From contig JBBPFI010000008.1 in NCBI GenBank assembly GCA_037974965.1, positions 1 to 64,000 on the forward strand: a DNA stretch of 64,000 nucleotides. The letters are read 5' to 3'. The notes under the pieces are model-generated. The model searched no databases, was not told where the DNA came from, and saw only the letters and a list, made by a program, of their open reading frames with translations. Within the stretch, counting starts at the first letter, position 1. Every line of letters starts with the position of its first letter. This document shows positions 32,634-60,618 of the stretch, piece by piece. This stretch comes from Dacryopinax spathularia (taxonomy: Eukaryota; Basidiomycota; Dacrymycetes; Dacrymycetales; Dacrymycetaceae). The translations under genes and the position numbers were made by a program.

Positions 32634-34798
32634 GGCGCCGACTTCCTTCCTCCGCTGGGAGAGAGAAGTTGGGGAAGACTTGTCGGGGGGCTAACAGTAA
32701 GTGCGGGATATGTACAATCAAATCAGCGTTGGGCTGGTTGGTCTGGCAAGGGGTGCTGGGGCACCGAGCGTGTACCGCCGGTCAGTAGGAATTCTTCCGA
32801 CTTCCGCGCTTTACCTGTTCGAGCACGTCGCCGAGCTGCGGAGAATGTGCTGGCACGCAGGAAGCACGATGCACGGGCCATCATCTGTGCGATCGGGCTT
32901 CCTCGCCCGCATGGCTCTATCCGCAGAAGCTGGGGTCAGTTGTGTGGATCCAGTAATGCGGCTGATTGGCATGCCACCGCGAGAATGTGGGATTGCGCCG
33001 GCGGTATGCGCGGTAGGATGGATGTTGAAGATGGACGAACATAATGTAATGTGACATCAGAGTCTAGCTCAGGGTTCGACCTGTTTCCTTTCTCTTTCTG
33101 TTCTATGAAGAACTGGGACCCTCTGCACGCACTGGATTGGTCTGCGACGGATGATGCGGTTCACGGTGCCTGTTGCAGATGGGAGAAGATGGTCCGACGC
33201 ACCGGCATGTTTCTCCCCGGAAGTACTGGACCCAACATTCGGGTCATGTCCACCTGGCCAGGTGCAAACAGCAGCAGGAGCTGTCACTCCCATTCCGGGA
33301 AACAGCGAAGCGAGTTATTCCGAAGCGAGGAGCTCCGAGCCGAGAGAGGGGGGAGGGCAAGGATCAGGGGGGAAGCGAAGCGAGGTGCGACGGTTGTTTG
33401 CGCGAGAGACACGGAGCCGGAGCCGGAGGAAGAAGCGCGGCGGACCCGGTGACCTGCCAGCGGGGCGGATTAACTGACTTTTTCGGGGGTGGATTCAATG
33501 CGCAGGGGCGTGACCCATCTCGACGGAGCCGATCGGAGGTGTGGGTTTGTCAGATTTTGCATTCTAGACCGCTTGGTAGGCGGTGATGATCAGAACGAAC
33601 GAACGGAGGACGGCGGAGAAAAGAGTGATGATGATGATTGTATTTTTCTGATGATGGGTTCTATTAGTCTGCAGCTGCAGTCCGGTTGGAGACGGTGGTT
33701 GCGAGGGCCGTGGATTGGGTGGGAATATCGTGAGTGCCGTTGTGGGCTGGACTGCGATGCACCGCCGCTGGTAGCATATGAAACACGGGAGCAGACATCT
33801 GCCGGCGGCGCCCCGGACGGGAGCAGAGATGGGCTGAGCCCCGGTGGGTGGGTTGTTTAACGGAAGCAAAAGAAGCGAGCGTGGCAAAAAGGGGACGAAG
33901 GGCGGGATTGAAGGAGCAACATTTGAGCTGGCAGACCCCCGCATCGGTGGAACGGGAGCGGGTGAGCCACGCACGTACGCAAGGGTAGGGTCACACCCTT
34001 CGAGCCCTTCGAGCCTGGCCCAATTTCATCCAGCGGTCGTTTCCCCGTTCATAACCCAACCTCAGCTTGTCTCTTTCATCACCCACTCACTTGTGAGGCG
34101 CAACCAGAGCCATATGAGCTCACCCCGTCCACCCCGATCGTCGCTTCACGCGAGCCCGTGACCCAGTTCACCACAAAAACACGTCAGCCAGAAACGAGAC
34201 AACACTCAACCTCGTCCGTCCCTGTGTCTCCCACCTCGCCTTCCGCCTCCGCCGCTCGGCACATACTCAACCTCACCTGCGTAGTCCCTCCGAGAACGCA
34301 CTCGCAACCACCGGGGCCGACCGGGGTAACCGAGTCTGACAAGTTGCTTGTTCCTGCAAAAGCATACATACATCTACCCCGGCCGGGTTGAAAGAGAGGA
34401 GAGGAGGAGGAAGAAACCCTTAGCCCCGACCTCGGCTCACCTCGCTTCCGCCCGAGGTATTAACAACCCCAGCACCGCCCAGACCAACAACACCAACACA
34501 ACACATAACCACACTTTGACCCCCCTCTCGTCTCACGACCGAGCACACACTCGCACCAACAACCGCATTCATCCTTCTTCGCTTCGGAATACAAAAGGTG
34601 TGCTGGCCATCTATCAACTCAATTCCCTCAACACACGTACACCGTTGCTTCTCCCCCTCTCTCCCCACGCGCCTCGAACTCCATTTATTCCCGAGCACAC
34701 CGCGTCTTCCCCCCCTCCGTCGCCTCCCTTTCCCCTTTCTTTCACCCACCACCTTGTTTACCAAATCCCGTCAATTTCAACATACTGACTGAACCCTT
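32634..34798. other. Long intergenic region upstream of the triple-cluster gene
   Basis: About 2.2 kb, the longest gap between host genes. From about 34010 to 34795 it is strongly C/T/A-rich on the + strand, like a long pyrimidine-rich leader or promoter. Purine-rich stretches occur at 33330-33440. Frames of 60-146 codons exist but show no motif and no splice continuity. A long, regulated promoter for the downstream Zn2Cys6 gene is a plausible reading. Confidence 0.45.
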
Positions 34799-36966
34799 AT
34801 GGAGACCACCTCCGCGACAAAGCAAGGGGTCGACCCTACCTCATCCTCACGCGACACTCTCCCTTCCCCCACCAACCAGTCCGCCAAACCGATGGCCGCT
34901 GTCCACCAACGACCACACGCGCAGGGTGCGTCTCCCTATTTCTGCGCATACATGCTGTGCAGGCTGATGACTCTTCATTCCTCTTTCGCTGCGCATAGAC
35001 ATGCCAGCTCCTCCCTTGCCTAACCTGCCTGGCAACCCGCCGATGGACGTCGACCCTGCGCTTGCAGGGAACGGCTTCAACGCCGGTCTGAAACGCAAGC
35101 TGGACGAACCCCCAGCTGAAGAGCGGGGTGCGCCAGCGCCGCGCTTGAGCATGGCCCAGGACGGTCCTCAGACGGGTCCGACCACGAATGGACCAACGAA
35201 TGGACCGCCAGGGCCGCCGCACCACGAGCAGCCGCATGCGGGGATGCCAGGTCCGAATCCAGGCTTCGCGCATGGAGGTCCGAGGACACCTGTCCAACAC
35301 TCACCCCTGCAGGAAGCGTTCGACACTCCTGGGTCGGATGGCAGTCGACCTCTGCAGATCGAGACGTCTGGCAGGAAGGTGACGATCGCGTGCGAGAACT
35401 GGTGAGCATATATCTGCATTCTGCCAGCTACATGTATGCTAATTCTGCATTCAGTCGTCAGCGCAAGACTCGCTGTGATGGCGGGATCCCCTGCGGGCGG
35501 TGTGTGCGCTCGCAGAGCGTATGCCAATACGACACCGAGCGCCGCCGACGAGGTCCTCACGCCGGGTCCCGACGCGGCAAAACAGGCCCGTACAGCCTCG
35601 AAGACTTCCTAGAATCGAACGTCCGGAAGGCGCAGGCGGAGAGCTCGGCCAGCAGAGCGGCGAACCGCCAGCAGAGGCAGTACTCGGACCAGTCCCCTGA
35701 GGCTTCCTTCGCTTCCGCGCCGCCCGGGAGCGGTGCTTTCCCGCCTCCATCGCCAACAAAATCGCTCAAGTCGGCAAAAGGCGCCTCGGCCAGCGAGAAC
35801 GAAGCCGGGCCCGGCACGGGCAAAAAAGTGACATTCGCCTGCCAGGGCTGGTGAGTACCCGTTCCTTCTTTTCCCTTGCTTCCAGCGCCAGAACCCTGAG
35901 CTAATGCGGTTTCTACAGTCGCCAACGAAAAACCCGGTGCGATGGATGCACGCCGTGCGCGAGCTGTGCACGTTTGAAAGCCGAGTGCGTCTACGACACC
36001 GAGCGGAAACGGCGCGGGCCGCGCGTTGGCTACCGCCGTGGCGGCAAAGCCGAAGCCGTCGCAGCGGCGATCGTCCTGACGAGCTCCGAGCCGAACATGG
36101 CGGTTCCGTACGCTGCTGCCGCTGCCAGCAAACAGCCGCAGGGTGAGCCAGTCCTGTGGGCACAGGCGGAGGAGCTCCGCCCGCTTTCTCCCGAGCCGCC
36201 TCCTCCTACTCAGTTTGTGCCCGGCCCGTCGCTCGCCAACCTCGTGGATGCACATAGGACAGCTCAGGTGCCTCCGCCCGTGCCTGTGCCCGCGCCTCCT
36301 CCGACGGCGGACAAGAAGCCGGAGCCGAACGAGGATGAGCTACAGGGCGAGACGGACTACGAGGGGGATGAGTCTACGGACGAAGCGCATGTGGAGGGCT
36401 CGTTGCACGACCCGAATGTCCCTCGCGCACCGGGTGACGACAGACCCAGGCGCACCGTCGGGTCTTGCACCATGTGGTATGTCCACCGCCTCCGTCCAAA
36501 CAAAGGACTGCCACTAACAATCACCGCAGCCGAGTCAGGAAGGTCAAGTGCGACCGAGTCCACCCTCAGTGCGGCAGCTGCGCCCAGCACGGCCAGACAT
36601 GCAGGTACGAGATGCCGCCCAAGCGGCGCAAGCGTCCCCTGGTGGAGGATCCGACTCCCGGCGCACCCCCGCCGCCTCCTCCGCCGGGCATGCAGATCCC
36701 CCCCTCAGCCGGGAACGGGCCGGAGTCGACCATGGACCAGTGGGTGAACAACCAAGATGGTACGCATCGATCCTCTTGATCCTTACGTCTTTCCTGACTA
36801 AATGATGGATCATGATTCAGGTCCGCACGCTAACGGTCCCCCGCCCGTTGGTCCACCCCTCCCACCTCCGGGGATGATGCCGCTCCCTCCGCCCATGGGC
36901 CACCCGGGCGTCCCAGCCCCCGCAGGCCCAGTCGGCTCCCCTCCAGCGCCAACAGCAGCGCCCTAA
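34799..36966 (+). CDS. Zn2Cys6 protein C with three zinc clusters
   Basis: Six exons, about 560 residues, Pro/Gly-rich between clusters. Three complete Zn2Cys6 clusters: IACENCRQRKTRCDGGIPCG + RCVRSQSVCQYD; FACQGCRQRKTRCDGCTPCA + SCARLKAECVYD; SCTMCRVRKVKCDRVHPQCG + SCAQHGQTCRYE. Each is split by an intron inside the second Cys codon (about 35402-35454, 35850-35919, 36477-36530), as in neighbouring genes A and B. Clusters 1 and 2 are both followed by YDTER(R/K)RRGP, so they arose by internal duplication. The first intron (about 34926-34999) joins PHAQ to DMPAPPLP; the last (about 36759-36820) leads to the Pro-rich end (stop 36964-36966). No middle-homology domain is seen. It is probably nuclear and DNA-binding; whether all three clusters contact DNA is unknown. 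Confidence 0.87.
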
Positions 36967-43959: not shown

Positions 43960-43966
43960 TGCGGAG
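43960..43966. repeat. Left target-site duplication (TGCGGAG)
   Basis: TGCGGAG directly abuts the left inverted repeat and is repeated exactly at 60612-60618, directly after the right inverted repeat. Including the first T of the element on the left and the base after the right copy, the match is 8 bp. It is the expected footprint of insertion. Confidence 0.85.
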
Positions 43967-43998
43967 TATGACGGGACAAATGGGACAAAACCCTGAGC
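43967..43998 (+). repeat. Left terminal inverted repeat of the large element
   Basis: A 32-bp terminal repeat beginning TATGACGGGACA and ending CCCTGAGC. It matches the reverse complement of 60580-60611 at 30 of 32 positions; the mismatches are the 13th and 16th bases. Confidence 0.9.
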
Positions 43999-45090
43999 AG
44001 CGATGCAACCGCTGTCGCAGCCTTCTCATCCTTCGTCGTACCTTCGGCACGCGCTCCCAGCTCTCTGGATTCCCTCCCAGCGTCCCCCGCTCTTGCCGCA
44101 CTCGCCGATCGCTTAGTTTGCTCACATACTTCCCGTTCCACTTGGCAAGCATTCCCCCCCACCGCGGCTGATGCGGAACCCATCCTTCGCTTTTCCTTCA
44201 ACACGATTGCTGCGATATCCGACCTGGACCAATGCTATATCCCCGTATTCAGATTACACTCCCCATCGCCTCCCAGACGCAGTCACAATTTGCGCTGAGA
44301 AGCCCGGCAGTCCGTGCCGAGCTTACCAATTGTAGATTACGAGTTAATCGAAGGAATAGAATACAAATTGGGCCCGAGGGAATCGTCCGATTCGCGTGGA
44401 CCTGCGTTAGAGGTCCCTTGATCGCTTCCGTATCTTAAATCGGGATCTTGATCTTGTGTTTCCTTCGATTCCTACGTACGTAGTTGACAGTCATATCCCC
44501 TACCAAACCACCTCAACTCTTTCTTGAAGGTCCTGCTCATTATTGACACAGTATCTGGCTCATGTCTCTTGGGAAGCGTGGAGCACGAAGGGCTCGATGG
44601 CGCATAATTGTGAACCAGCTGTACCTCTGCACCCGCCGTCATCTCTTGATCATCTCTAATATCTGGCGGCCGGCCCAGTCCGCTATTCCTCGACATACCA
44701 TCACCGCTTTCCGCCCTTGGACCTTTCACATGGATGCTCTATCGCTACCAGTATCCGCTGCCCTGGAACGCGGTATGTTTACGCGTTTTATGGGCAACGG
44801 CAGAAATTGACCTTCCCCCCACTTTTTCGCCAGAGCACTAGTGACCTGGCACCCCCTCCTTCAGGTCACCTCCACGCCTCTCTTCAATGCTCTGACCTTG
44901 AGCATTGGTTTCTTGTCCCATCTCCTTGGAGCGCGCCAGTTTTACTTTCGCCTATCCCATTCCCCTGCGTCGTTCAGGTGAGAGGATCCCTTCGACTCCT
45001 TCGATTCCTGCAGAGACCTGATAGTACGGTTGTGCACTTCCATTCTCAACCTGTGCGTCAGGTTCAATACATTATCTTCTGCAGTAATCG
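43999..45090. other. Left subterminal region of the element
   Basis: About 1.1 kb between the left terminal repeat and the first internal gene. It should contain that gene's promoter. Short frames are present without motifs. The phrase TTCGACTCCTTCGATTCC (about 44983-45008) is an instance of the element's recurrent GAAGGAGTCGAAGGA-type repeat. Confidence 0.45.
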
Positions 45091-48000
45091 ATGCCGCCAA
45101 CCCAAGATACCAGCACACAACCTGGCTTCGCTCCGGTTGCAACCTTCTCCACCATCCCTGGCACCCCGCTCGTGCAGAATGGGTTCCTCAGTCAATTGCA
45201 AACACACAAACACGCCAATGTCAATACGAACCGACTGGAGGCTTCCGCGCGTCATCCCCCCACCATGCAGACGCACATTCGTCGTTCAAGCCGCATGCGT
45301 GGACGTGGTGGTGGTAATCCTCCTTCGGACAGCCCCCGAGGTCCGCCAAGGGGCTTCCAAGAGCCTCCGGTGGCTCGAAGGGACAGCATTCCTTCGACTC
45401 GTGTAACTTCTGGGGCTAGGAGGGGGCTCACTAGTCGCTCCCAGCGCGCAGCCCCGATTAAGATCGTCGTTCTACCCTGCCCGGTATGTCAACAACCACC
45501 TCCAGCAATCTGTATTAATCATGATTTAGCTCGGTGGCATTCCGGAGGTCTTCCCTCTTACTGATGCGGACGGCACAAGACCATTCGGAGGACTAGACCA
45601 ACAGGCTCTTTCTGTCCTGTTGACCCGATTTGGAACCGTTGGGCTTATCCACGAAGTCGATCCGGCAACTACCACCCTTCAAGAACTCAGCGACCGGTTG
45701 ATTGCCCACCTGGACTCGCACGGCCTCTGCTTTCCTCCCCCGTCGTCAAGCAGCACTGATGCATCTCCTCTAGTATCGTTGTCTGTCTCAGAAGCACCCT
45801 TGTTCCAGTTCGTTCGGCCTCGCAATCAGACTCACGTACCCCCGGGACCTTACGCGCCAGTCGTACTCCAGCCCGAGCAGGCTATCTTACCCCAGCTCAA
45901 GAGCTTGTATCGATCTTGGAGGGAGGCAGGGAGCGGTGAAGGGCGTGCATTCCTGGTATTCGTCAGTGCGTCAGCGCCATACGTTCTTTCTGGATATTGC
46001 TTATGTTGTGACTGCGTAAGCACCCCGGTTTGGCGGAATCCCGGGTTATCTTCCCCAGGCGCTGCTAAGAGGCGCTGGCAAGCATCTTTGCTTTATACGA
46101 TGGGCGCTCCACCGAGTGTCGCATAGTGACCCCGCACATGGCCATCTGTCCGACTCCTGCCTCGGTCCTAGCTGCGTTGTGCCTCGCCTTGCCGACCTGC
46201 TAGTCCCGTCTGCTCAACCTCGGCCAGCTTCTCCTGTACATCCCCCCACAATCAACGACGACGTACGCCAGCTGCGCAGTCCTTCACCTGACCGGCCTCT
46301 CGCACCGGGAACGGGTGAAACGCCCGATTTGTTCCATACAACTCGTCACTCACCCAGTCGCTCGCCCAGTCGCTCGTCTCCCCTACCTACCGTCGAGGAA
46401 GCTTCCATCCTTACACCCCGTAACCGATCCCGCCCTCCCGCTTCTCCATCCGTGGCAAGAAGGCCCGAAGGACTAGCCATTGATCGTGGTGTTGGTGTCA
46501 ATGCTGATGACGATGTCATCAGAAACACCTCTCCCAGGAGGCAACTGACTCCTTCGACCCCTTCGACTCAATCGGCGCCTCAAAATGCGCAACAACAACC
46601 CACTCCTCAACCTTCCGCAAGCAATGTCACTCGAGCTCGACTCACACAATTGCGTGGACGCGAAGGACTCGAAGGAACGGCTGGAAGCGAGGGACACGGA
46701 GGTGAGTTGGGGACGCCACGATTAGGTATTCGATCACCCAACATTCTAGCCGCTTCTCACCGCTCTTCGCGACCTCGTGCTTCACCTTCTCCACCCCTCG
46801 TTGACGATCGCAGGGTACAACAGAGGCGAGGCAGTGCTGGGAACCCAATCGACCTAACAGGGGGACTGACATTTGGTTTTGGCGAATTCTCTGTCGATTC
46901 GATTCCAGTCGGTGCGTCATACTGCACCTCGCGCATTCACAACCTCCTTGCTAACATTGATTTGCTCCAATCAGCTTGGTCTCCGCCCAATGTACATACC
47001 GATTCCTTCCGCAGTCGCTGCTTGAGCTGGGCTCGGGAAGCTACGGCCCATATCGATGCTCCCCCCTATGGGCAGGACCAGCCGTTCGAATCCTACACCT
47101 ATCCGGGCCATCCCACCTCATTCACCGAGCCAGCGTTCCTTTCATTAGCTGGGAAGCTTGCTTCCTCATTCTGGTTCATGCTCGCCGCCGCCTTTCCATG
47201 TCCTCGATCACACCAGCCCGACCCGACCGAGGAGGCTGTAGAAGACTTCCGCCAATTTTGCATCTCTCTGACTCCTGAACACTTCCGCGTTGAGATGTAC
47301 GTTCTTTCTCTAAACTGTGAATATCATATTTAAGTCCTTGGTAGATTTGCTCCCCCTCCTTCGCCTCACTCGACTCGATCGATTGTCACCTTCGGCAGTG
47401 GTCCCACGAGGGTCACCTTCCATATGGTACTAACTCAATACGTGGCCCGGAAGCCTCGCGCTTTCTCTACTACAATCGACGGCTTCGTCGCTCTCAATCC
47501 CCCAGAGGGATACCACTACACGGATGAGCTGTTCTGGCTTGGTATGGGCATCCTCGCCATTCTTTGGATTGTGTTCGGCAATACTGCACCCTTCAACCTA
47601 TCCCCATTCCTCCTGTACGTTGCTGGTTCAGACGATCCCGATGTCGCGCTCGAGTTCTGTTACGATTGCAAGTTTATACGTACCTTCGCCCCTCAGGCTG
47701 CCGATTATCTGGAGTCGTGGGATTCGTTGGCTCGCATACACGTGGTAGATGCCACAGAGGCGCAGAAGCTTTCGCGGCGTGCTCCCAAGCATTTGATGGC
47801 GGATATGCAGCACTACATGGAAGCATTGGACGTGGTGGGTCTCAGCACTCCTCCCGATACTCATGTCTAATGACCCCTCTGACAGCCGATCATTCCTGAG
47901 AATATTTCCAGCTGGAGAATGTCGTCCACGTCTCACAAAAGCATTCGGAAGAGACTTGCACACCTTCTTCTTTTTGGATATGCGGATTTTAGCCTGGTGG

Positions 48001-48512
48001 TTCCCCAAGTGGTCGCGTTCAAGACTGGCTTGGGCTACATGGAGCGGTTGCGAAACGTATGTCCCGCACCATAATATTTTCACGAGATCGCGCTGATTAC
48101 TCACTAGTATCTGGTCCGCAATGCATTCCCTGACTTCCGATCCTTGGTTTATGTCCTATACCAAGACATAACTTTGCAGCCAGACACTTACCTTTTACAG
48201 CGCATTCGGTGGAGGCAACCCCAACTAGGTGTTCCGCAGCAGGCATGGGGAGAGGTCAAGTGAGCGCTCTCCAGATTCATCGTACGGCAAGGACTCCCCG
48301 TTCTCACCTCTTCACCCGGGTCGGACGGTCTACGAGCAGTATACGCCACACTGCACCATACAGGGATGCTACCAGGGCTAGCATCGCCCGCAATGCAGCG
48401 CCCACACATACGGAGAATCCTCCTGAACGTCACAGTCCTGGGGCTTGAGCAACCTCCAGCCACGATGGACATCCAGGCATGTTCTCACCTTCCTGCGCGT
48501 CTACAATGCTGA
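45091..48512 (+). CDS. Element-encoded multi-exon gene, HECT-like C-terminal region
   Basis: A Ser/Pro/Arg-rich N-terminal part (MPPTQDTSTQPGFAPVATFS) is followed by a conserved-looking block (GGIPEVFPLTDADGTRPFGG then LDQQALSVLLTRFGTVGLIH). A long low-complexity middle runs to about 46900, then a block around WSPPNVHTDSFRSRCLSWAR. The C-terminal half, after a 50-nt intron at about 47298-47341, reads SGPTRVTFHMVLTQYVARKP, YHYTDELFWLGMGILAILWI then NLSPFLLYVAG, FSLVVPQVVAFKTGLGYMER and FIVRQGLPVLTSS. Spacing and pattern resemble the N- and C-lobes of HECT ubiquitin ligases carried by eukaryotic mobile elements. The catalytic-Cys region cannot be identified with confidence. The exon boundaries near 46000-46120 and the possibility of two genes are unresolved. 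Confidence 0.45.
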
Positions 48513-49595
48513 GCCAAGCCTCTAGATTGAGATCAAGCCTCACATGATAACCCTGCCTAGGCAGCACGCCCCTCAAGCGAGTACAGAAACACTTATTAGG
48601 GCAAAAGTATGCAGCAATGTACTGGTCATCGAGTATGGCACCACTCTGCATGCACTCGCCGGAGCGGATGACCACGGCCTGGAGTTCGACCGCGCTATCC
48701 TGGCTTGCTTACTTACCTCTGGTTCCAACTTTAATACAATATGATATCTATTGTCTAGTAATATATATGCGTTATTGCCTTCGACGACGATTGACACAGA
48801 TCGGTATGCTCGCGCCTTTGCCGGCGTTCCCCATGCTCCCTACTTTCCACGCCCTTCGAGCACGCCGACTCGCTCGAATGCCATTGTTGCCACTCACACT
48901 TCGACCCATACTCGTCCTTCCGCTCGAAGGAGTCGAAGGAACCCGTCTATTGCTACCACTCCTACTCCAACCCAGTTTCACCTCGTCCCCGGGTCAAGAA
49001 GATCTCGGTCCGCGCCTACAGCTGATACTTGTCCTCCAACCGGTTCGACACCTTCGAGTCCTTCGACCCCGTCTATTGCTGCCACTTGCACTCCATCCCA
49101 TCCCACCCATGAATTTCAGTAACTCACAGCACGACAGCCGCTCTCGGATCGCCGTTCGGGTTTTTCGTCCCAGCCTCTCGACTTTCTCTCCTCAACCCCT
49201 TCGTCCCTTGCCCTGCCAGCACCTGGAGGTTGAGGTAAAGGTGAACAGCGAGTGCAGGTGGAGTAGAGCTGAGATGAGGAAGATGAATGTGGAAAGTGAG
49301 TACCAGCAGGAGCTGGTGAAGAGGATCAAAGGAGATGGGACATGGGTCCACTCGGGGAAGAGGAGGAGTGGAAGGAGACGACGTCCATGATGCAGTGTCA
49401 TGGCAGGCTGCAGCTCATCCGATGAATGTCGTTATGGCCTTGATTCAGCTGGAGATAAGCTCAATGACTCCATAAATGCTCTACCCGAGCCTGCCAGCTA
49501 CGCAATGCGTTCGCTCAAGGATGTGGACATGGACTTCAACTCCAACCCGAGCTTGTCCTTCGAGCCGATGAACTACGATGAACGCCAAACCATCC
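48513..49595. repeat. Degenerate GAAGGA/GTCTATTGC minisatellite region
   Basis: Contains scattered units combining TCGAAGGA(GTCGAAGGA) or its complement with GTCTATTGCTRCCACT (for example about 48930-48960 and 49045-49085). Frames on both strands are open because of this periodicity, so no gene is called, although a 257-codon plus frame spans 48617-49390. At 49455-49600 lies a diverged copy of the first exon of the gene that follows, encoding INALPEPASYAMRSLKDVDM. Confidence 0.5.
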
Positions 49596-50377
49596 ATGGC
49601 TACGCACCTCCTGTCATTGGTACGTTCAGCTCAACTGATCTAACCAGTTCTAATACCTACTTTCGATTGTAGGAGAGCCATTACCCAGCTGCAGACATGC
49701 ACAACAACCCCATGAATGCTCTATCCGAGGCTCCCAGCCACGCAACGCGTTCGCCCAAGGACGTGGACGTGGACTTCAACTCCAACCCGAGCTCGTCCTC
49801 CGAGCCGAGGAACTCCGACGAACGCCAAACCATCCATTGCTACCACCTCCACTGCAACCCGTCTTCACTCTTAGAGTCAAAGGACTCGAAGGTGTCGAAG
49901 GGACCTGTCTATTGCTGCCATTCATACACCAACCTATCCTGGTCCTGCGAGCCGAATGACTTGGAGGGACACCACGCCATCCATTGCTACCACTCGTCCT
50001 TGAACCCAGCATCGTCCTCCGAGCCGAAGGAATGGAAGGACTCACGAGAGTGGCAGGAGCAGAAGGAGGGGAAGGGGCGGAAGGAGTCGAAGGAGTCGAA
50101 GGAACCCGTCCAGCCCTGCCTCACCCTACCTCCCATGCTCCAACACATCATCGTCCGGCAAGGCGACGGGCCGAGAGGGGCACCGACCTGTCCTTTGCCA
50201 CCCCCCTACACCAACCTTCAGGTCATCTTTGGAGCGGCCGGACTAGGAGATACGCCAAAATATCCCTTCCTACCACTTGTACTTGAACCCAGTCTCATCT
50301 TTCGAGTCAAGGAACCAGAGGAGTCGGAGGAGTCGAAGATGGCTATCACTTGGACTCCATCCTCATATCCCTGGTAG
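49596..50377 (+). CDS. Repeat protein, forward copy of inverted gene pair
   Basis: ATG at 49596 (MATHLLSL), an intron of about 54 nt (GTACGTTC ... TTGTAG, about 49620-49673), then ESHYPAADMHNNPMNALSEA and a Ser/His/Cys-rich repeat protein with units such as GPVYCCHSYTNLSWSCEPND. From 49600 to about 50030 it is almost identical to the reverse complement of 57955-58380. After that the two copies differ completely: this one continues into KEWKDSREWQEQKEGKGRKE and ends PSSYPW. Function is unknown; the second reading frame is also open over much of the repeat. It could be a truncated, chimeric copy. Confidence 0.45.
49600..50030 (+). repeat. Left arm of internal inverted repeat
   Basis: About 430 bp, nearly identical to the reverse complement of 57955-58380 with only scattered single-base differences. 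The arm includes the start region, intron and repeat-coding part of a gene. About 7.9 kb lie between the arms. Confidence 0.85.
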
Positions 50378-50988
50378 TTGCATGGCTTGTTCATGTATCA
50401 TATAGCGATAATAGTCATGGATAATCCAACAATGAGTCTCACGCATTCTCACCCTTAGAGTCGCAGGACATGAGAGTAGTCGAAGGGGCGCGTCTAATGC
50501 TGCAGCTCGTCCTCCAGCCCGTCCTTACTCTTAGAGTCAAAGGACTCGAAGGTGTCGAAGGGACCTGTCTATTGCTGCCATTCATACACCAACCTATCCT
50601 GGTCCTGCGAGCCGAATGACTCGGAGGGACACCACACCATCCATTGCTATCACTTGTGCTTCAACTCACTCATCGTTAGATCGTGTTTGTATATGCACGG
50701 TCCCTTATCGCAACAACAGTCATGGATTAGCAACAATGAGTGACTACTTCATACAGGTACAGCAAGCGGTGTTCGTACGTCAAGGAAAAGCAAGAGGCCA
50801 CAGCAGGATAAGGTAGCGCGGCGGAGAAAAAGAGAGAGTCCATACTTCATTCCAATGCAACATTCGTAGGAGTCGTGTGTTTCGACGGAGGTACAGGATC
50901 GCCAAGCTGAGAGACACTTAGGGCAAGAGCAAGTTGGAGCACGGCGAACAAGCTGAGGACGGCTGCACCCGGTGGAGCGGTACGAGCT
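50378..50988. repeat. Partial third copy of the repeat-gene segment and flank
   Basis: 50519-50655 is a direct, nearly identical copy of 49858-49995 (the part encoding SKDSKVSKGPVYCCHSYTNL). The surrounding sequence has short related fragments (AGAGTCG units at 50455-50500). 50750-50988 is the 3' flank of the minus-strand gene that follows. No complete gene is seen. Confidence 0.6.
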
Positions 50989-52707
50989 CTAAAGGTATTG
51001 GTCCTGTACAACACATTAGCGTAGGCGGAGCCGCATAATCTATTGTCTCACCGCATCCACAAAGCCTATAGCATTGTCATTGCTCGCCCTGAACGCCTTC
51101 AAGGCAGCTTCGAGTAGGCCGGCCAAACTGTCACTGAGATCGCGGTGGTAGATGCCGTTGCGGGTGACCAGGGCGTGGGCAAAATTCAGGCGGTAGTCCG
51201 GACTAACGCCTCCCCTGCGCAGCCTTTTCAACACCTCCTTGCCCAGGTCTTCGACAGCTTCAGGTTCTGGTCCATTCGACTTACGAGGCGCGATATCAGG
51301 CATGAACTAGAGTACGGATTAGCCTTCGAAATCTTCATTCGATCAGGGCTGCTTACGTTGGGCTGAGCCGCTTTGGCAGCCTTGATACAGCGATCCGCAA
51401 ACTCGACAACTCCCGTAGCAGCTGTTCTCAAGTCATTGTCAAATAGACGATAGTCTCCAAAGAGATCGCTGAGGAACTCGAGCCTCGTCTCATAAGAGAC
51501 TGAGGGGTCCGCCAGCCTCTTATGCAGCTCGTCTTCCAGATCGTCCATCTCGTACTTGCTGTAAGACCTCACGGCCTGCTCCGCTGGCTTCTCGTGGTCG
51601 CTCGAGTCCTTGTCGGAGTCCTGGACACGGCGATCAGTAAGCTATCAGCTCGCCGAGAGGTGACACTCACATCGACCGGCGTATTGTTGGGGGTGCCGTT
51701 GTTGGTCTTACGGCGCTGTGGAAAGGCGGGCAAAGGTTAGTCACTTGTATCCTGACGCAGACTTGGTTTGACGCGCCTTCCTCCCCTTGTCCTTCGAGCG
51801 ACTCGAATGGTTCGAATTCTTACGCTTTTGGCCATTCGATTTCTGGTTCTTCGCCTTGCGCTTGCTGTGCTTCTTCTTGTTCTTCGATGTGGAATGGGAG
51901 CGGTGAGACTTGTTCTTGCTATTCTTACAAGACTGGCGCATGGCCTCGCGCTCCTCAGCTTCGCGATCCAACCTTTCAGAGAGCTCCGCCGCCTCTCGGG
52001 CAAGTTTCTTGGCTTCGGCGAGACTGGCAGTGTTGAACTGTACAGGCTTTCCCACCATCAGCGGCGCATAACGGTCGGGGGAGACTTGGGGCTTCAGGTT
52101 GTCGGGGTAGCGATATTTGCCGGTGATGGGGATGCCCTGACGTCTGGCTCGTCTAGCGGTGACTTGATCGGCGTATTCTATCAGGCGGCTCAGTATATGC
52201 GCCCGTGTTGTCTCGACTTGAAGGCATGACTCACCAAAGTGACCGCACTTGCAGTCATGGTCGTTCGCAAATGCGCAGCCTGCGCATATACGTAAGTTTT
52301 CTCACTGCAAAAGCAATAGAAAGAGACGTACGGAACAGGGTACGGCCATCGCGACAGGTCACCACACTTGCGATGCGCAGGTGTCGGCAGACCTCGTTCA
52401 TCTCCCCGCGGCGCTTGGAGCGCAAGAAGGTACCTTGGAACTCATAGACCGTGAGCGTCCTGGGTCCAGAGGAGGCGTGCGGTTCCAGCTCATCTTCGCC
52501 TTCATCGTCCGATGAGTCGGAGGAGTTGAAGGAGTCGAAGGAGTCCGACGAGTCGGACGAGTCGGACGAGTCCCTCGATGAGACAGAGCTGTCCCACCCT
52601 TCGTCTTCGCTGCCGCTGACCGACTCGCCTTCGGAGTCTTGATCGCTTTGCTCTTCGTTAAGGTCATCCGGCTCGGCGAACCTAATATGTTTCTGGGCGC
52701 GGGCCAT
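50989..52707 (-). CDS. Element-encoded Ser/Asp- and Lys-rich multi-exon gene
   Basis: Starts MARAQKHIRFAEPDDLNEEQ (52707). A long acidic Ser/Asp tract (about 52640-52500) leads to TVYEFQGTFLRSKRRGEMNE, then a short Cys/His segment spliced as CAFANDHDCKCGHF. Next is a Lys/Ser/His-rich basic region (about 51930-51780) and two helical blocks: MDDLEDELHKRLADPSVSYE and APRKSNGPEPEAVEDLGKEV then LKRLRRGGVSPDYRLNFAHA. The last exon is tiny (DQYL, stop 50989-50991). At least six introns are indicated; the junction near 51745 could not be settled. No family is recognised. The acidic, Cys/His and basic parts suggest a nucleic-acid or chromatin-associated role, which is speculation. Confidence 0.6.
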
Positions 52708-53378
52708 GCTCGATCCAAGTTGGCGAAGGCTGCGAGCGGCTATTAGGGATCGGGATAGGGGCGTGGGTAGTCGGAGAAGTGGAGTTCAAGGGGCAAGATG
52801 TATGCTGTGGAATGAGGGAGTGATAGTTGATGGTGATGGTAGTGGAAGAAGAAGAGAGGGAGGTGCAAGGAGGCTGCAAGCACGCGTTTATGTATGCGCA
52901 AGGTTCGGATACCGCCCCGCGGAGCTAACTCTGCGGTAGAGTCATAGTTCTGTGACTGTCACGCTTGCCAATGACTCACGGGGTTTCGAGGTAGGGAAGA
53001 GGACACAGACTGTCATCCCGGAGTCGCCAACTACGCCGACCCGAGCGCATACAAAGAGAGAGTGTGTCGTTCTCGTGCTTGCTGGTCCTACAAGTCTGCA
53101 TGTCCGTGCGCGAATGCGAAGCATACGACTCCCTTGAGTCCTTCGCGTCCATCGTGTCGCAAGATCTGTTCTACAAAGGGCTGTCAACAGGTGTTTTTGT
53201 GGCGTGCATTTACGTGGCGTACCGGGATAAGCTTGTATGCGCTTGAGCTCACTTGCCGAGGAAAGTAGAGAATCACGAGGCGAAGGAATGGAACGAGGAA
53301 ATGGATGGGAATGAGGGATCATATTCAACGCCGACTAGATACAGGTAGTGTCTTACATAGCCGTAGTCGCCAGACAAC
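52708..53378. other. Intergenic region inside the element
   Basis: About 670 bp between two same-strand genes of the element, probably including the promoter of the gene ending at 50989. A 128-codon minus frame (52942-53328) has no motif or good coding signal. Confidence 0.4.
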
Positions 53379-55535
53379 TCATTCGAGGCTCGTCCCTCCC
53401 AAATCCGGAGTGAGCTGCTTAATGAGATTGAGTACAGCTGTGAGCCTCCACGTTCCTGCAAGCGTAGCGATCACTCCAGGAGGAGTTCCTTCGCATATAT
53501 TGACTCGCTCGACCTCCGTGCGCGCCAGGCAGTATCCCACTACCCCAAGGACCTGTAATTTGGTCCGCCCAGCTCCAGAGGCATACTCAGGGAGGTGCCA
53601 TTGACGGACCCGCTCGAAGTACCATTCTTGATGTGCCGCCCAGAAGGTAGATAGCTTGCTCAACTTGCCTCGATGTGCACCAATGGTTCGACGGGCCACT
53701 CCTCCTCCTCGACTATGAGAGGTGAACCACGCGACTAGATCGTCTGACGTGATCCGACCATCCCAATCTTCAGCCTGAGGGACGTAATATACATCGTTCT
53801 CCAGCGCGAAAGGCATACCCAAGAATGCCGCAACTTCATTGAACAGCTGAGTTCTTCTTACGAACCAAGCTACCGAACTCATCGCCAGGATTCCATGATG
53901 TGGCGAGCTCGGTGATACGGAGAGGAGTGCATCTGTCGCAGGAAACTGGTTTGAAAGATAGGCTGAGATCCGCGCATGGCGCGGATCGCTAACAGCCTCC
54001 CGCACGATCGCTCCGTGAGGTCGTCGAGATTGACCCAAGCGCCGGCCAGCCTGCCGTGAACTGGGTGTCGAAGGGCCCGGCAGCTCGCCACGTACAGCTT
54101 GACCATTTCTTCGATGAGCCCCAGCAGTTTGACAACGCTGGGGGCTTGAGATTGGAGAGGGACTTGCAGGAGTCGAATGACGCGGCGGAGACGCGGTTGA
54201 GTGGCGATCCGGCGACTCAGTCGCGCGGTGACGAATGGGCGAGGAAGGCGGAGTACGAGGGATCAAGGTAGGCATGGACCGTTCCAGTCGGCGAGAGCAG
54301 TCAGCTAAAGCGACAAGATAGAGGACAAACACCCGACCCTCGTAGTGCCTGGGGTCAACGTATGACGGAAGCTGCCCCTTCAGCTCAAGCGATCTATTGG
54401 CCAGGTGATCCATCTCCTCCAACGTCTCCCCCGAGTCCGTCGGCTCCTCTGAGATGAACCGATCGAGAATCCCCAGAATACGATGGCCGGGCTGGCTAGT
54501 GAAGGCGTCCGGCCCGTACCTCTCGGAGGAGGGTACACGAGAGGTGGCAACAGCGTAACCGCTGTATTGGGATGTGCAGAACCGACTGAGACTGTGCGGT
54601 TCGTCATCCGCCTTGCTGCCAAAGATGCGCGGGATGAGCACGTCCGCCGAGTCTTCATGACTATAAGGCGATGGAATCATCGCACGGCCAAATACTGTGC
54701 CATCCCTCCGATTGCCCACAAAAACGATAACGAATACTGAGAACCAGTTGTCGTCCCTCTCCTCTGTGTCAGGCGAGGATGGGATGGGAAAGGATGGACT
54801 AGAGTAGAGCGGACTCCGTGTCATATGCCGGCCAAGCTGGTTCGAAGGCGGCGAAGATGATGAGGGTGACAGGACGCGTGGGGTGGGAGCTGGAGGGGAG
54901 GAGTGGTTGGAATGGTTGGAAGTGGAGTCGTCGGAGTAGTCCTCTGCTACTGCAGTGCCGCCCATAGTAGGTTCCTGTCGTCCGGGACTGCGAAGCAGTT
55001 CGGCCCTTCCTGCTCGAGCACGAGCTTGGAGCACGAGTGCACCAATCGTCCTGAGCAAAGGTAACTGAGTATGTCTTGGGACGGATGAGGCGATGACCAC
55101 GTACACATTGGATATCGAATATGATTCCCCCACAGGGACATCACCAGCGAAAGTCCTATCGTCTCCCTCGACTCCATCGATTTGGGACATTCCGACTGAG
55201 ATTGATATAGCTTCAGGCTGTTGAGGAAGGACCGAGTGAGTCGAAGGCGACGAAGGGTGCCTCGTTGTCGATACGGCAGATGCAGACCAAACATAGTTTA
55301 GCAGATCGGCCTGCTCGCCAGCTTCACTGCCCAAGAGTGGCTGATCGATTGTGTAACGTTGATGAGCAGACAGGGAGGTCGCAATTGGTGGAGAGGGTTG
55401 TATCGCATTCACGTTGGAAGAACAATACGGTGATGAACGGTCGTCCAGGGTCCTAAGGTACGACAGCCCCGGATGCGACAATGTACTAATATTTTCAAAA
55501 GAAGTGGAATTTGGTATAGCTACAGGCATAAACAC
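53379..55535 (-). CDS. Element-encoded 718-residue protein next to the integrase
   Basis: One open frame from MFMPVAIPNSTSFENI to a stop at 53379. The N-terminal two thirds are Ser/Pro/Thr/Arg-rich and low in complexity (for example STASPPRHSTPASPSPISSP). The C-terminal third, from about residue 560, looks folded: SSVAWFVRRTQLFNEVAAFL, YYVPQAEDWDGRITSDDLVA, RRTIGAHRGKLSKLSTFWAA, and LQVLGVVGYCLARTEVERVN. The start lies 23 bp after the end of the integrase frame and on the same strand, suggesting coupled expression or a shared transcript. No family is recognised. Whether the low-complexity portion contains introns is unclear. Confidence 0.6.
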   Translation of the reverse strand: MFMPVAIPNSTSFENISTLSHPGLSYLRTLDDRSSPYCSSNVNAIQPSPPIATSLSAHQRYTIDQPLLGSEAGEQADLLNYVWSASAVSTTRHPSSPSTHSVLPQQPEAISISVGMSQIDGVEGDDRTFAGDVPVGESYSISNVYVVIASSVPRHTQLPLLRTIGALVLQARARAGRAELLRSPGRQEPTMGGTAVAEDYSDDSTSNHSNHSSPPAPTPRVLSPSSSSPPSNQLGRHMTRSPLYSSPSFPIPSSPDTEERDDNWFSVFVIVFVGNRRDGTVFGRAMIPSPYSHEDSADVLIPRIFGSKADDEPHSLSRFCTSQYSGYAVATSRVPSSERYGPDAFTSQPGHRILGILDRFISEEPTDSGETLEEMDHLANRSLELKGQLPSYVDPRHYEGRVFVLYLVALADCSRRLERSMPTLIPRTPPSSPIRHRATESPDRHSTASPPRHSTPASPSPISSPQRCQTAGAHRRNGQAVRGELPGPSTPSSRQAGRRLGQSRRPHGAIVREAVSDPRHARISAYLSNQFPATDALLSVSPSSPHHGILAMSSVAWFVRRTQLFNEVAAFLGMPFALENDVYYVPQAEDWDGRITSDDLVAWFTSHSRGGGVARRTIGAHRGKLSKLSTFWAAHQEWYFERVRQWHLPEYASGAGRTKLQVLGVVGYCLARTEVERVNICEGTPPGVIATLAGTWRLTAVLNLIKQLTPDLGGTSLE

Positions 55536-55557
55536 GGCCTAAAAGTCGTATCTGAGG

Positions 55558-57347
55558 CTAAGTCAGCCCGGCGCAATACTGCAATGCCCACCTCCATCTC
55601 TCCGTGAGCATAATGGGGTCACACTGCTCTGAGTAGGGCTGCACCTCCTCGAGGAGTTGACGAAGCTGGTCAGGCGCGAGGGGACAGTTTGGGACGGGGG
55701 AATCGATGGACGATAAGGGAGAAGGCACTTGATCCATGTTTTGGATCTGTGTACGGAATCCTCGAAGAGGAGGGTGCAGATTGTCCTCGTCGTGGCGTCC
55801 TTCCATCGAATCCCTCGCGTCAGAGATTTCCGCGCCGTAGAGCTCTGGGTTGCGATGATATTCTGTGTCATCGAACGCTGCCAGCTGGATCCCTCTTGCC
55901 CCGTGCTGAACGCAGCCGTCGAGAAAGGCAAATACTGGGCGCTGATTGCCTTCCTCAAGCTCCATCGTGTGGTAATTCCACTCGTTTTGGAAGGCGACGG
56001 CGTCGTCATTGAGATCCGGTAGGTACAGCAGATGCAGCAACCAAATATGATCTTGATTCAGGCGATTGAGACCGTGGTAGTCTTGGAGTGTGTGGAAGAA
56101 CTCGTACCACTTCCTCCCGAAGGAATTGGTGACATCGACCCACATCCGCTCGATCCGTGTGTTGTGGACGCTTTTCCCCCATATATACGAGGCGCGAGAG
56201 GCACCTCTGTTCCGCAACATCCACTCGGCCACTCTAACGTTCTCCCCGCCATGGTCCCCTCGTACTCGGGAAGGGGTCCCAAACTTCTCAACCCCTTCCA
56301 GGAACACCGACAAGACTGCATCGGCGGAATTAGTCGCATTCACCCTAATCGCGGTGATACAGCGGGAGAAGCCATCCACGAACGCATGGATGTAGAGACG
56401 GAAGTCGACCAGTCCATGTTGACCGTCATGGTGCCAGAGAGAATTTGGCCCCGCCACTCGATACTTTCGACGGCGGATGCTGCGACGGTCAAACTGGCGA
56501 GGAATCGGATCAATTCGCCTTAATGCGGAAGAGAGCAGTCGCAAGGGGATGTTGAGCCCTTGAGCAACGAGGTGGCCATTGAGCATACGACGGCCATTGT
56601 CCGGAAATCGCCGCCGCCAATCCCTCACTATCACGTCCAGCTCAGCCTCAGACATGGGAACCGATCGTTTCTGTCTGCCAGCCCATTCGCGGTGGCTTGA
56701 TCCGTCTGGTCCAGAGACAAGCCGGACTATGGGCAAGCCAGGAGTCCGTAGTCCTTGTTCGAGCAGTCTCCGCCTTACTGTGCGGGAGGAGACACCTAGT
56801 TTTCATGCTATGGCGGAAGTCGACGTCAAGTGCGCGGTTTCTTGCAGATACGCTTGATTGATGCAGACCCGCGGCCGGCCTGCTCCTCCTGTTGACTCGA
56901 AAGTAATGATTCGAGGCACTTGCCGGGCAATGTTGTCGGTCGTGCGAGCCAGGGCAATATCCATGTGAGACAGAATATCTCTGATGTCATGTTCCAGAGC
57001 AGAAACATGGCTTGATGGGAAGAGCGGGAATAGCTGATGCACTGTATGTCAGACGTGTTTTGCTGCGTACTTTTGACTCGTACCTGTCTTGCTGATTCCC
57101 AGAATTGCACGACTTGGGCACGAGTCTCTACCAGACTGTCGCGATGGGAGACGTCAATGCGAAGGCTGGTTACTACCCTTTGCTGAAGCGCAGCGTAGTG
57201 CTCAGCAACGATGGTTGCTGCCAATTCCGGTTGCTCCAACAAGGCAGGCACATTGAAGGTGGGCATGGCCGAGGTGCCTGAGCAGGTGAGCGATGAGAAG
57301 ACGAAGGGCACCACGGGGTCGAGTGGCGCAGAATTTTGGGCATTCAA
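55558..57347 (-). CDS. Integrase with rve (RNase H-like) catalytic core
   Basis: The main frame (56736-55558) contains an integrase core: LWHHDGQHGLVDFRLYIHAF, then VEKFGTPSRVRGDHGGENVR, then GKSVHNTRIERMWVDVTNSF, giving a D, D, E triad with about 34 residues between the second Asp and the Glu. LLHLLYLPDLNDDAVAFQNE + WNYHTMELEEGNQRPVFAFL follow, as in integrase-core genes scattered through fungal and animal genomes. The upstream part (to about 57347) includes a helix-turn-helix-like stretch (GVSSRTVRRRLLEQG) and an N-terminal region beginning MNAQNSAPLDPVVP, and is probably spliced. The protein is the presumed recombinase of the 16.6-kb element. It looks mostly whole. The relation to retroviral-type, Ginger or other integrases is not resolved here. 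Confidence 0.7.
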
Positions 57348-57466
57348 TCAGATAACCGGGCGGAATCAGCCGATCATGGTTATCATTACGGAAAACGGCA
57401 TAGTGAGTTACAAACGAGTGCTGTTCTGACATTCAAGAGAAGAAAAGGAAACAGTTTGGGCGGGTA

Positions 57467-58382
57467 TCACAAATGGCAATGCCCGAAATAAAGCCTGTAC
57501 AGCCGTTCATACAACGCCTCCACATAATCAACCTGCTTCTCGAAGACAGCGGCGACATCGAGCACCGCCTTCGCCATCTTGTGACCGTACAGCTGAGCCC
57601 GCTCACGTCGCGCAGCCCTGCGCATTTCTGCTTCCGTCACCCTCCTCTCCTCTTCCTCCTTATCGGTTGCGGAGACGACTTGAGCAGGGTGTTGCAGCAT
57701 ATATGGCCCAACACAGCGAACAATGATGTTCGCAAGTGCATGGATCTGCTCGATACTCTCGCCACCACCGTCTGCCTTGAAAAGCAGGACGTTATCCGGG
57801 AGTGTATGATCCGGATTGAGGTTCTCGCCAGGGTCGAGTGCCCCAGTGTCATACTTCTTCTCGGGAGATGAGGATGGGTATGAGCACGAGTGGTAGCAAT
57901 AGACGGGTTCCTTCGACTCCTTCGACTCCTTCGACTCCTTCGAGTCCTTCGACTCGAAGGACGATGCTGGGTTCGAGGACGAATGGTAGCAATGGATGGC
58001 GTGGTGTCCCTCCGAGTCATTCGGCTCGCAGGACCAGGATAGGTTGGTGTATGAATGGCAGCAATAGACAGGTCCCTTCGACACCTTCGAGTCCTTTGAC
58101 TCTAAGAGTGAAGACGGGTTGCAGTGGAGGTGGTAGCAATGGATGGTTTGGCGTTCGTCGGAGTTCCTCGGCTCGGAGGACGAGCTCGGGTTGGAGTTGA
58201 AGTCCACGTCCACGTCCTTGGGCGAACGCGTTGCGTGGCTGGGAGCCTCGGATAGAGCATTCATGGGGTTGTTGTGCATGTCTGCAGCTGGGTAATGGCT
58301 CTCCTACAATCGAAAGAGTAGGTATTAGAACTGGTTAGATCAGTTGAGCTGAACGTACCGATGACAGGAGGTGCGTAGGCAT
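57467..58382 (-). CDS. Repeat protein, reverse copy of inverted gene pair
   Basis: ATG at 58380-58382 (MPTHLLSS), an intron of about 56 nt, then ESHYPAADMHNNPMNALSEA. The repeat part has units like GPVYCCHSYTNLSWSCEPND + SEGHHAIHCYHSSSNPASS and a run of SKE repeats (about 57903-57955). After the repeat it reads DNVLLFKADGGGESIEQIHA, then a charged helical stretch KEEEERRVTEAEMRRAARRE and VDYVEALYERLYRLYFGHCH. The first half is shared with the forward copy at 49596. The unique, folded-looking second half suggests this is the original copy. Function is unknown. Confidence 0.6.
57955..58380 (-). repeat. Right arm of internal inverted repeat
   Basis: Reverse-complement partner of 49600-50030. 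Similarity stops within a few bases of the start codon on one side and at the SKE-coding repeat on the other. Confidence 0.85.
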
Positions 58383-58863
58383 GGGGGGGATGGTGAGAGA
58401 TGAGTGTTCAGGTGTAAGCTGGGCAATAGATCCCGAAACACCCCTGTCCTCCTTCCATGGAGCCAGCCGCATGGCTAAACCAATTAGATAAGCAGCTCAG
58501 GTCTTCACGTGCATGTGACGTTCCGGTATCAGGGTCTCCAAGAAAGTATGACATATATGGTAAAGGCATCTTTGAGCTTCCAAGACTCACAGTTCGGATA
58601 GAAGTTTGCTGTTGGAATAGCACAGACAGTAACACAGAGAGAAACATCAGCTTTGGGAATCAGGTCTAAGCCAGAAGTCACAGGAGTCGAACGATTCCTG
58701 GGAGACGTGGGAAACGGATCGACGGCCATGTCATTTAGGGAATGGGTGCTCAAGCAGTACAAAGAGCGGTAAGGGAATCTCAGCGGCGATACTCAGTGCA
58801 GGGAATACAGAGACCATGATGTACGTAGGAGACTGCAGAGAAGGCAGGAGAGGAATGAAAAAA
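58383..58863. other. Intergenic region inside the element
   Basis: About 480 bp between two minus-strand genes, probably the promoter of the repeat-protein gene. Frames in both directions (58408-58647 and others) carry no motif. Confidence 0.4.
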
Positions 58864-59767
58864 CTACTTGGAGGCTGAAGCCGTCGCATTTCCTAGGACG
58901 CCGGTCATGGCAGCGTTGTTGTTGACCGACTGATGGCGAGTCAGGTCCACGAGCTTCCAGATGCCTACCCCGATCTATCAGTGACGCCTAACAGCGTACA
59001 GTAGATGCTTACCAAGACCCATTCCAGTCAGCACGAGGAGTAGAACGATGGTCAAGATGATGGCACGGCACGTTTTGCCTGCCTTGACCGGATCGCACTC
59101 GTATCCGAGATCCTCTAAGCAAGTCCCGACGCTCCAGCAGCAAACTTGACACTTCTCGAGGCAACATTCTCCACAGCCATCCCAGCAATCGCCAACAGAG
59201 GTGCACATCTTGACGCAGCGCTTCGCATGACCGCGGGTCGTCTCACGAACTCGGGCGTGACGCAAGCGTGCGTACTCAGCCCTTTCCTCGGGTGTCATGT
59301 TGGCGGACCTCGCCCTACTCGATCTGTTCCTGCGACCACCGCGCCTGGAGGTCGTCATCTCGATGGATGATGCAGGTTCGGTGGCCACGGTGGCCACAGT
59401 GGGGATGGCGTCCTGGTTGCTAGTCAGTTTGTACCAACAGGACGAGCAGGGTAGTCATGCGCACCATCGAGTCCCTCGCAGCCCCCGAATCCCTCGTGCC
59501 CAATCCAGCACGCTGCAAGTTTCCCTCCGTAAGATCTTCCCCGTAATCACTCTCGTCGCTGTCGTCGTTCCCGAGGATGTAGTTGGGCTCGGAGGGTTCG
59601 TTTAAATCGTCGGCGTCGGAGGAGCGAAGGAGGCCCTCCTCCATTGACGTGGAGACGTGGTTGCCGGCGTTGGTGTCCGAATTCCGCTGCCGCTTGAACA
59701 CCAGGCGTTGGATGTTGGACCAGGAGTACTTATGGCGGGGCCGACGATCCGGAGTGGGTGAGGACAT
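58864..59767 (-). CDS. Cysteine-rich single-pass membrane protein of the element
   Basis: Three exons. MSSPTPDRRPRHKYSWSN and an acidic stretch are spliced (GTGCGC ... ACCAG) to MDAIPTVATVATEPASS, then RRGGRRNRSSRARSA. A cysteine-dense segment follows (CVKMCTSVGDCWDGCGECCL with EKCQVCCWSVGTCLEDLGYE; about 14 Cys within 55 residues). Next comes one hydrophobic helix (AIILTIVLLLVLTGMGLGIW), completed by the third exon after a short intron, and a tail ending GNATASASK. There is no cleavable signal peptide, so a type II or tail-anchored topology is plausible. No family is recognised. A membrane protein is unusual cargo for a plain DNA transposon. Confidence 0.6.
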
Positions 59768-60579
59768 GTTTAGAAGTCGAGGTCGGATGAGAGGAAAGAG
59801 GCAGAGACGAGAGAGATAGGGGACTTGGATGCGCTGGCGCGCCCTGCCGGATGTAAGCCGGAAGCAAAAGCACGTGTTGCTCGGTCCCTATGTGGATGCT
59901 GGCTGACGATCGGGGGGCGACAAGGAAAAGGACAAAATATATTAACAATAGTTTTCATTGTTCGAATATTTATGTTAATTACGTTTACAAATGGTCTATC
60001 TAGGTTATAAAGTAAGAGATTGAGGTAGATATCATACCTCAAGTGTCCTCCTCGGCGAGGACAGCCAACGGCGAAGGGACGATGGCAACGACTTGGCTTC
60101 CAGGGAATCCTTCGAATCATAGGAATCGAAGGGAAGCCGGAAGTCTTCTGCCCGAGTAGATTTCCCCCAAATTCCTGTGTATCATCAGCGGACGCCGACG
60201 GCTGGCCGACAGAAGCAGGCGGACCCCAGATACACCACTAGTGCATTGTTAGCGGATGGCGAGGGCAGTGAGTAGATGACTAACCTATGTCCTTGCTTGT
60301 CCGAGAACTCGAGGGCAGCGCGTTATTCCAAAGCGGCGCGAATGAGCTGGAGCGAGCCAGCGTTACCAAAAAAGCAAGGTGAGGAAGTGCTGAGGAAACA
60401 CTCCCGTCAATCGATTCGAGTGCAAGTCGAGTGCTTCGTTCGAGTGCTGCTGGAGTGATTGCCGGGTGAATTGGGAAAGATGGGAATGCGGGGAATGCAG
60501 GGCGAGTGCGCAGAAGTCAGGGATGGTAGATCGACGGGGGAAGGGGGCAGCCGAGTGATCCGCGAATGCGGGACATCCC
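59768..60579. other. Right subterminal region of the element, with AT-rich patch
   Basis: About 810 bp. An AT-rich patch at about 59932-60010 stands out against the GC-rich surroundings. The palindrome GCGGGACATCCCGC lies at 60569-60582, partly overlapping the right terminal repeat. The stretch includes the promoter of the membrane-protein gene. No gene is seen. Confidence 0.5.
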
Positions 60580-60611
60580 GCTCAGGGTTTTGTCCGATAT
60601 GTCCCGTCATA
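60580..60611 (-). repeat. Right terminal inverted repeat of the large element
   Basis: Reverse complement begins TATGACGGGACA and ends CCCTGAGC, matching 43967-43998 at 30 of 32 bases. Confidence 0.9.
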
Positions 60612-60618
60612 TGCGGAG
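60612..60618. repeat. Right target-site duplication (TGCGGAG)
   Basis: Exact copy of 43960-43966, immediately outside the right terminal repeat. Confidence 0.85.

Follow-up and report, generated by a model that had tools for sequence, protein, structure and literature searches.

Introduction

To our knowledge, giant gene-carrying transposons of fungi are known chiefly as the Starships of Pezizomycotina. IS3EU elements are described as having TA..TA termini and usually 6-bp target-site duplications, and they are not separated from IS481EU in a published tree, while 4-5-bp duplications are given for Ginger1/2 (PMC10045372). Fungal examples are Styx of Zymoseptoria, an IS3EU-like element of 7,927 bp with 6-bp duplications and accessory genes (GATA, CCHC, DUF3577; PMC10853768), and the TET+ IS3EU elements of rusts and Tuber, with ends of the form TAYGG..CCRTA, 6-bp duplications and TET/JBP genes (PMC12730594). 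Here we report a 16,645-bp element, E1, from the first 64,000 nucleotides of contig JBBPFI010000008.1 of Dacryopinax spathularia (assembly GCA_037974965.1). This stretch is referred to as the window and the contig as C8 (window = C8:1-64000). E1 is very probably a class II DNA transposon and the window copy of a family of giant IS3EU-like elements. Like Starships, the family consists of giant fungal transposons with many genes, whereas Starships are described from Pezizomycotina with a tyrosine recombinase and the elements here have an integrase-type DDE transposase and terminal inverted repeats (TIRs; PMC12289983, PMC12134995). No description of giant elements of this kind was found in the literature searched, which excluded Repbase and subscription papers.

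Results

E1 occupies positions 43967-60611 of the window. Its 32-bp TIRs (43967-43998 on the plus strand, 60580-60611 on the minus strand) share 30 of 32 positions, and the window has no third match at up to 3 mismatches (0 in 100 shuffles). Both are abutted by an exact TGCGGAG, which bears out the mobile element with clear ends proposed in a first-pass annotation of the window. The G+C fraction of E1 is 0.550 versus 0.563 in window 156-43959.

The survey covered 29,246,034 bases in 24 contigs. The full 32-bp end pattern occurs at four places, namely both ends of E1 and both ends of a second element, E2 (C3:2226096-2242329; 16,234 bp), flanked by a different 7-bp duplication, GAAAGAG; the second copy of the ends on which the first-pass proposal hinged is thus present. 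The two arm mismatches are common to both elements, with the TATATCGG variant on the arm near the transposase and AAATGGG on the far arm, and because each side has the same variant in E1 and E2 they look like old left and right identities, not decay. Less strict patterns were found at 30 places (TATGACGGGACANNTNGGACAAAA, up to 3 mismatches; 0 for the reversed pattern), 72 places (TATGANGN(9)GGACAAAA, up to 1 mismatch; 1 for the control) and 48 places (TATGAN(11)GGACAAA, exact; 0 for the control).

In total, 32 end pairs were delimited, which hold 61 of the 72 matches; in three pairs the partner end was found by a separate search. The pairs comprise 14 complete large elements including E1 (12,317-46,933 bp; Table 1) and 18 short ones, of which 17 measure 435-612 bp and one 2,486 bp. 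The limits of E3-E14 were set from their ends, and their sequence was read in part. The far ends of E12, E13 and E14 were sought in stretches of 2.2, 4.6 and 4.2 kb predicted from the place of gene G (see below) and are present there, with one candidate each for E12 and E13 and three for E14, where the best end match was chosen and a duplication is present too. All 14 large elements start with TATGA and end with TCATA, a uniformity that arises partly by construction (the searches specified TATGA); TATGA was not used to delimit E1, and the duplications lie directly next to these letters.

Exact target-site duplications flank 29 of the 32 pairs (15 of 7 bp, 12 of 6 bp and 2 of 8 bp), versus 1 match in 992 controls with cross-paired flanks of different elements. 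The large elements have nine of 7 bp, three of 6 bp, one of 8 bp and one imperfect duplication, and the short elements six of 7 bp, nine of 6 bp, one of 8 bp and two without any. The 7-8 bp given by the first-pass annotation was therefore close, but missed the 6-bp class, which is common.

A 39-kb giant member has moved recently, because E7 and E8 (39 kb each), found on two contigs and flanked by distinct 7-bp duplications, are nearly identical, with 8 mismatches in 5,816 bp sampled (99.94% identity over 1,601 bp and 99.83% over 4,215 bp). The short elements include four families with copies at different sites (94-97% identity; 76-90% for other copy pairs), and most copies carry their own duplications. 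One short element (C4:1461493-1462104) has ends that are 92.5-95% identical to the E9 ends over 40 bp.

The open reading frame (ORF) 55558-56802 on the minus strand of E1 (gene C) matches PF24764 (rva_4; E = 3.3e-57) and PF00665 (rve; E = 1.9e-9), in agreement with the rve-type integrase named earlier. The NCBIfam models IS481 (E = 4.7e-14) and IS3 (E = 2.1e-4) also match, both below their curated cut-offs, and both likewise match the E8 integrase and all three fungal homologues tried. The upstream exon, joined by eye, has a helix-turn-helix-like stretch and a single Cys; because this is the only Cys upstream of the core, there is no HHCC zinc domain before the core of the predicted E1 transposase under this exon model. 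Residues D126, D183 and E218, invariant across 16 aligned sequences, form a putative catalytic triad, judged from their spacing. A protein database search with the integrase yielded 378 proteins at E<=1e-10; among the 120 matches listed, the named ones are mostly Agaricomycetes, the best-scoring is 46% identical, and most are called hypothetical or integrase-domain proteins. The integrase is present in all 14 large elements. Its match is interrupted by one stop in E2 and by none in E3, E4, E6, E7, E8 and an incomplete copy on C1, which has the integrase and gene G, no match to gene D and a single end found. E1 itself has in-frame stops in gene C, where E2 reads through, and in gene G (Table 1), and is therefore probably non-autonomous and unable to move alone.

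A midpoint-rooted tree was built with 20 integrase loci (the genome has about 24) and 19 homologues taken from the 120 listed. In it, a branch with support 100/98 separates the integrases of E1-E14 and the C1 copy from the 19 fungal homologues and from five of the roughly nine further rva_4 loci in the genome; long branches are flagged for C8d, P0100 and P0096. Element size tracks the subgroups, with 12.3-16.9 kb in E1-E6 and E12 (95/92), 39 kb in E7 and E8, which group with the C1 copy (100/100), and 31.6-46.9 kb in E9-E11, E13 and E14 (92/86, not starred). Some rva_4 loci form look-alike pairs with the same identities and frame lengths (C12:250904-251992 and C7:1340344-1341432; C8:1597835-1598902 and C8:1074037-1075104); these lie outside the TATGA group, for the first pair also in the tree, and possibly represent another transposon family with other ends.

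Thirteen of the 14 large elements combine the integrase with genes D and G. Gene D has 16 genome matches, 15 in large elements and one at C13:494844, and no outside homologue at E<=0.001 among 8,000 protein-database candidates scored. The 53 genome matches of gene G (from 41 of 55 first-look candidates scored) are all in large elements or the C1 copy, and its one homologue outside this genome, among 7,999 candidates scored, is from Dacryopinax primogenitus (38%). Among the shorter elements (E1-E6 and E12), G is found close to the far end on the strand opposite to the integrase, and D adjoins the integrase on the same strand in six of the seven and is on the other strand in E12. In E7 and E8 all three genes share a strand, and G occupies the end that lies upstream of the integrase. 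At E<=1e-3, gene A is found only in E1, E2, E3, E4, E6 and E12, and gene E only in E1-E6 and E12.

The 718-residue partner, the Cys-rich protein and the Ser/Asp-rich protein of the first-pass annotation recur in the same order in E1 and E2 with pN/pS well under 1. Over 14 gene blocks the ratio is 0.13-0.51. Synonymous sites approach saturation in most blocks, and the blocks, taken as open frames, may include some intron; from these ratios we conclude that selection has maintained the element genes.

The label HECT-like, given earlier to gene G, found no support from sequence, as neither a Pfam nor a PDB profile search gave a match to a HECT domain, and G did not align with five HECT domains of this genome (hhalign probability 0.1). 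The predicted fold is of low confidence (pLDDT 38). A Cys near the C-terminus (V-C-[FS]) is conserved in all 9 sequences aligned.

Discussion

The first-pass annotation saw no obvious known class. The TA..TA termini, TIRs, IS481/IS3-like transposase without HHCC domain and 6-8-bp duplications point instead to IS3EU/GingerRoot as the closest. There is good support for the view that the element works in the manner of an IS3EU/IS481-type transposon, and membership in IS3EU is likely, not proven, with kinship judged from published IS3EU descriptions. The transposase encoded by gene C, with its integrase fold, would recognise ends near TATGAN(11)GGACAAAA, free the element, presumably by cut-and-paste, and join it to the target with staggered cuts usually 7 bp apart (6-8 bp). 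D and G, and in the shorter group also A and E/F, belong to the element itself and probably assist in transposition or help it to escape silencing, and the short elements that keep only such ends were probably moved in trans.

The elements share with IS3EU/GingerRoot, as described, the termini, the TIRs, an integrase-type DDE transposase of IS3/IS481 kinship without HHCC domain, and 6-bp duplications in 12 of 32 pairs, and yet they are set apart by the size of the large members (12.3-46.9 kb), the usual 7-bp duplication (9 of 14) and the D and G genes, which the descriptions consulted do not mention (PMC10045372). As in the description of Styx, a fungal IS3EU-like element has several genes beside the transposase and degenerate copies move too, whereas Styx is 7,927 bp long with 6-bp duplications and the accessory genes here are others (PMC10853768). 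TET+ IS3EU elements are likewise fungal, and their TIRs above 30 bp, TAYGG..CCRTA ends and 6-bp duplications agree with the elements here; the gene opposite to the transposase is an alpha-kinase in their description and gene G in the seven shorter elements here (PMC12730594). Pfam scans of ORFs from E1 and from 22 kb of E8 gave no match to TET/JBP or alpha-kinase.

Several observations weigh against an IS3EU-like mobile family. The commonest duplication is 7 bp (15 of 32 pairs; 9 of 14 large elements) versus the usual 6 bp of published IS3EU, and in E11 the integrase is present while D and G give no match at E<=1e-5. Eleven of the 72 matches to TATGANGN(9)GGACAAAA are unpaired, and three of the 32 pairs (E5 with 6 of 7 letters, C4:102761-105246 and C5:827560-828006) have no exact duplication. 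The integrase proteins of E1 and E2 are 75% identical, and E1 is an old copy because of this 25% difference.

It is unlikely, though the most serious alternative, that the elements are a separate new superfamily and not a lineage within IS3EU/GingerRoot, which would leave anatomy and mechanism unchanged. The commonest duplication of 7 bp, the orphan D and G genes, sizes up to 46.9 kb and integrases standing apart from the 19 fungal homologues sampled speak for it, while the TA..TA ends, the IS481/IS3-like transposase, the absence of HHCC and the 6-bp duplications in 12 of 32 pairs fit described IS3EU. Very improbable is a Polinton/Maverick-type or other virus-like integrated element in which D or G would be unrecognised capsid genes; it would accommodate an rve-type integrase, TIRs, a length of 12-47 kb and a recurrent orphan gene set, and protein-primed DNA polymerase B (PolB) has no match in the elements. 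By the features tested (PolB, duplication size and tyrosine recombinase), the earlier exclusion of Polinton, Ginger and Starship elements holds: the duplication size of Ginger1/2 is not seen, 29 of 32 pairs having 6-8 bp, and no tyrosine recombinase Pfam domain was found in 10 ORFs of E1 or in 9 ORFs from a 22-kb part of E8, and a single member among 12 for gene D gave a weak match to Phage_int_SAM_1 (E = 0.033). A chance or segmental-duplication arrangement of unrelated genes between copies of a dispersed motif would explain that the end motif recurs in the genome and can practically be dismissed, given that 61 of the 72 end matches belong to 32 inverted pairs, that duplications flank 29 of these versus 1 of 992 controls, and that the same genes recur between the ends.

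Under the preferred reading as giant IS3EU-like transposons, a DDE integrase of the type found in bacterial insertion sequences appears to mobilise units of 39 kb or more that hold a recurrent orphan gene set maintained by selection, and it can now be tested how such a transposase handles DNA of this length and which roles the extra genes have. With the ends and the duplication rule, other genomes can be searched for similar elements; rva_4 genes there are mostly annotated as hypothetical proteins. More tentatively, the elements may form an undescribed lineage of superfamily rank, giant (12-47 kb), with a core of transposase, D and G and recently moving 39-kb units; if so, they would parallel, in a basidiomycete and with an IS481/IS3-type enzyme, the Starships of Ascomycota.

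Other features

Table 1. Coordinates of features of E1 (window positions), of the other large elements and of unpaired end matches
Feature	Position	Strand	Remarks
Target-site duplication, left copy, TGCGGAG	43960..43966		exact, abuts TIR
TIR far from transposase, AAATGGG variant	43967..43998	+	same variant at distal end of E2
Gene G (labelled HECT-like)	45091..48744	+	7 exons by eye, introns 43-51 bp; stop 48261-48263
Gene G exons	45091-45483, 45530-46015, 46059-47296, 47345-47834, 47886-48056, 48108-48476, 48526-48744	+	model, alignment to E2
Inverted duplicate of gene B sequence, repeated in part	49437..50683		repeat families D2, D4, D5, D7; inverted repeats I1-I5
Gene E/F: Ser/Asp-rich N-terminus, Cys-containing segment, Lys-rich middle	50988..52707	-	several short introns; one gene by eye
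Gene D, partner ORF, 719 codons stop to stop	53379..55538	-	conserved domain residues ~262-712
Gene C, integrase-type transposase, HTH-like N-terminus and rva_4 core	55558..57266	-	two exons by eye; stop 56803-56805
Gene B, repeat-rich Ser/Pro/His protein	57467..58279	-	overlaps one arm of 408-nt inverted duplication
Gene A, Cys-rich, hydrophobic segment near C-terminus	58864..59767	-	several exons by eye
TIR near transposase, TATATCGG variant	60580..60611	-	repeat and pattern searches
Target-site duplication, right copy, TGCGGAG	60612..60618		exact, abuts TIR
E3	C2:1060897-1075854		ends
E4	C5:658770-673846		ends
E5	C8:686671-698987		ends
E6	C8:1024607-1040063		ends
E7	C4:504769-543886		ends; duplication CGCCCAG
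E8	C11:390130-429073		ends; duplication CAGGCGC
E9	C14:324741-356475		ends
E10	C8:714292-749571		ends
E11	C7:1517361-1552948		ends
E12	C3:749859-766710		ends
E13	C6:1398488-1445420		ends
E14	C8:1635234-1666875		ends
Unpaired end matches	C1:1046414, C1:2031757, C1:2167542, C2:708393, C3:779283, C4:2031133, C6:1137790, C10:980367, C11:977420, C13:305475, C18:688012

The inverted gene pair of the first-pass annotation corresponds to a 408-nt inverted duplication around gene B (49660-50067 and 57909-58316; 96% identical). Further diverged copies lie at about 49437-50683, and the arrangement as a whole would reflect internal duplication or conversion of gene B sequence. E8 contains three cargo ORFs of 446, 464 and 372 aa (L038:4477-5814, L038:7516-8907 and L039:3135-4250) with a common P-G-W motif and no Pfam match; the 464- and 372-aa ORFs have PPGW and appear by eye to be paralogues. 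The sole PolB match in the genome (C19:27816-29084; protein-primed, E = 5.5e-82) is perhaps mitochondrial or linear plasmid sequence.

A RidA-family gene on the minus strand (PF01042; E = 2.8e-19) has E1 on its upstream side, which confirms the neighbour named earlier. The window begins with 25.8 copies of AACCCT (positions 1-155), a telomere-like repeat that would place E1 44-61 kb from the chromosome end. At positions 33001-35000 the GC skew swings sharply, from +0.256 to -0.394 in adjacent 1-kb blocks.

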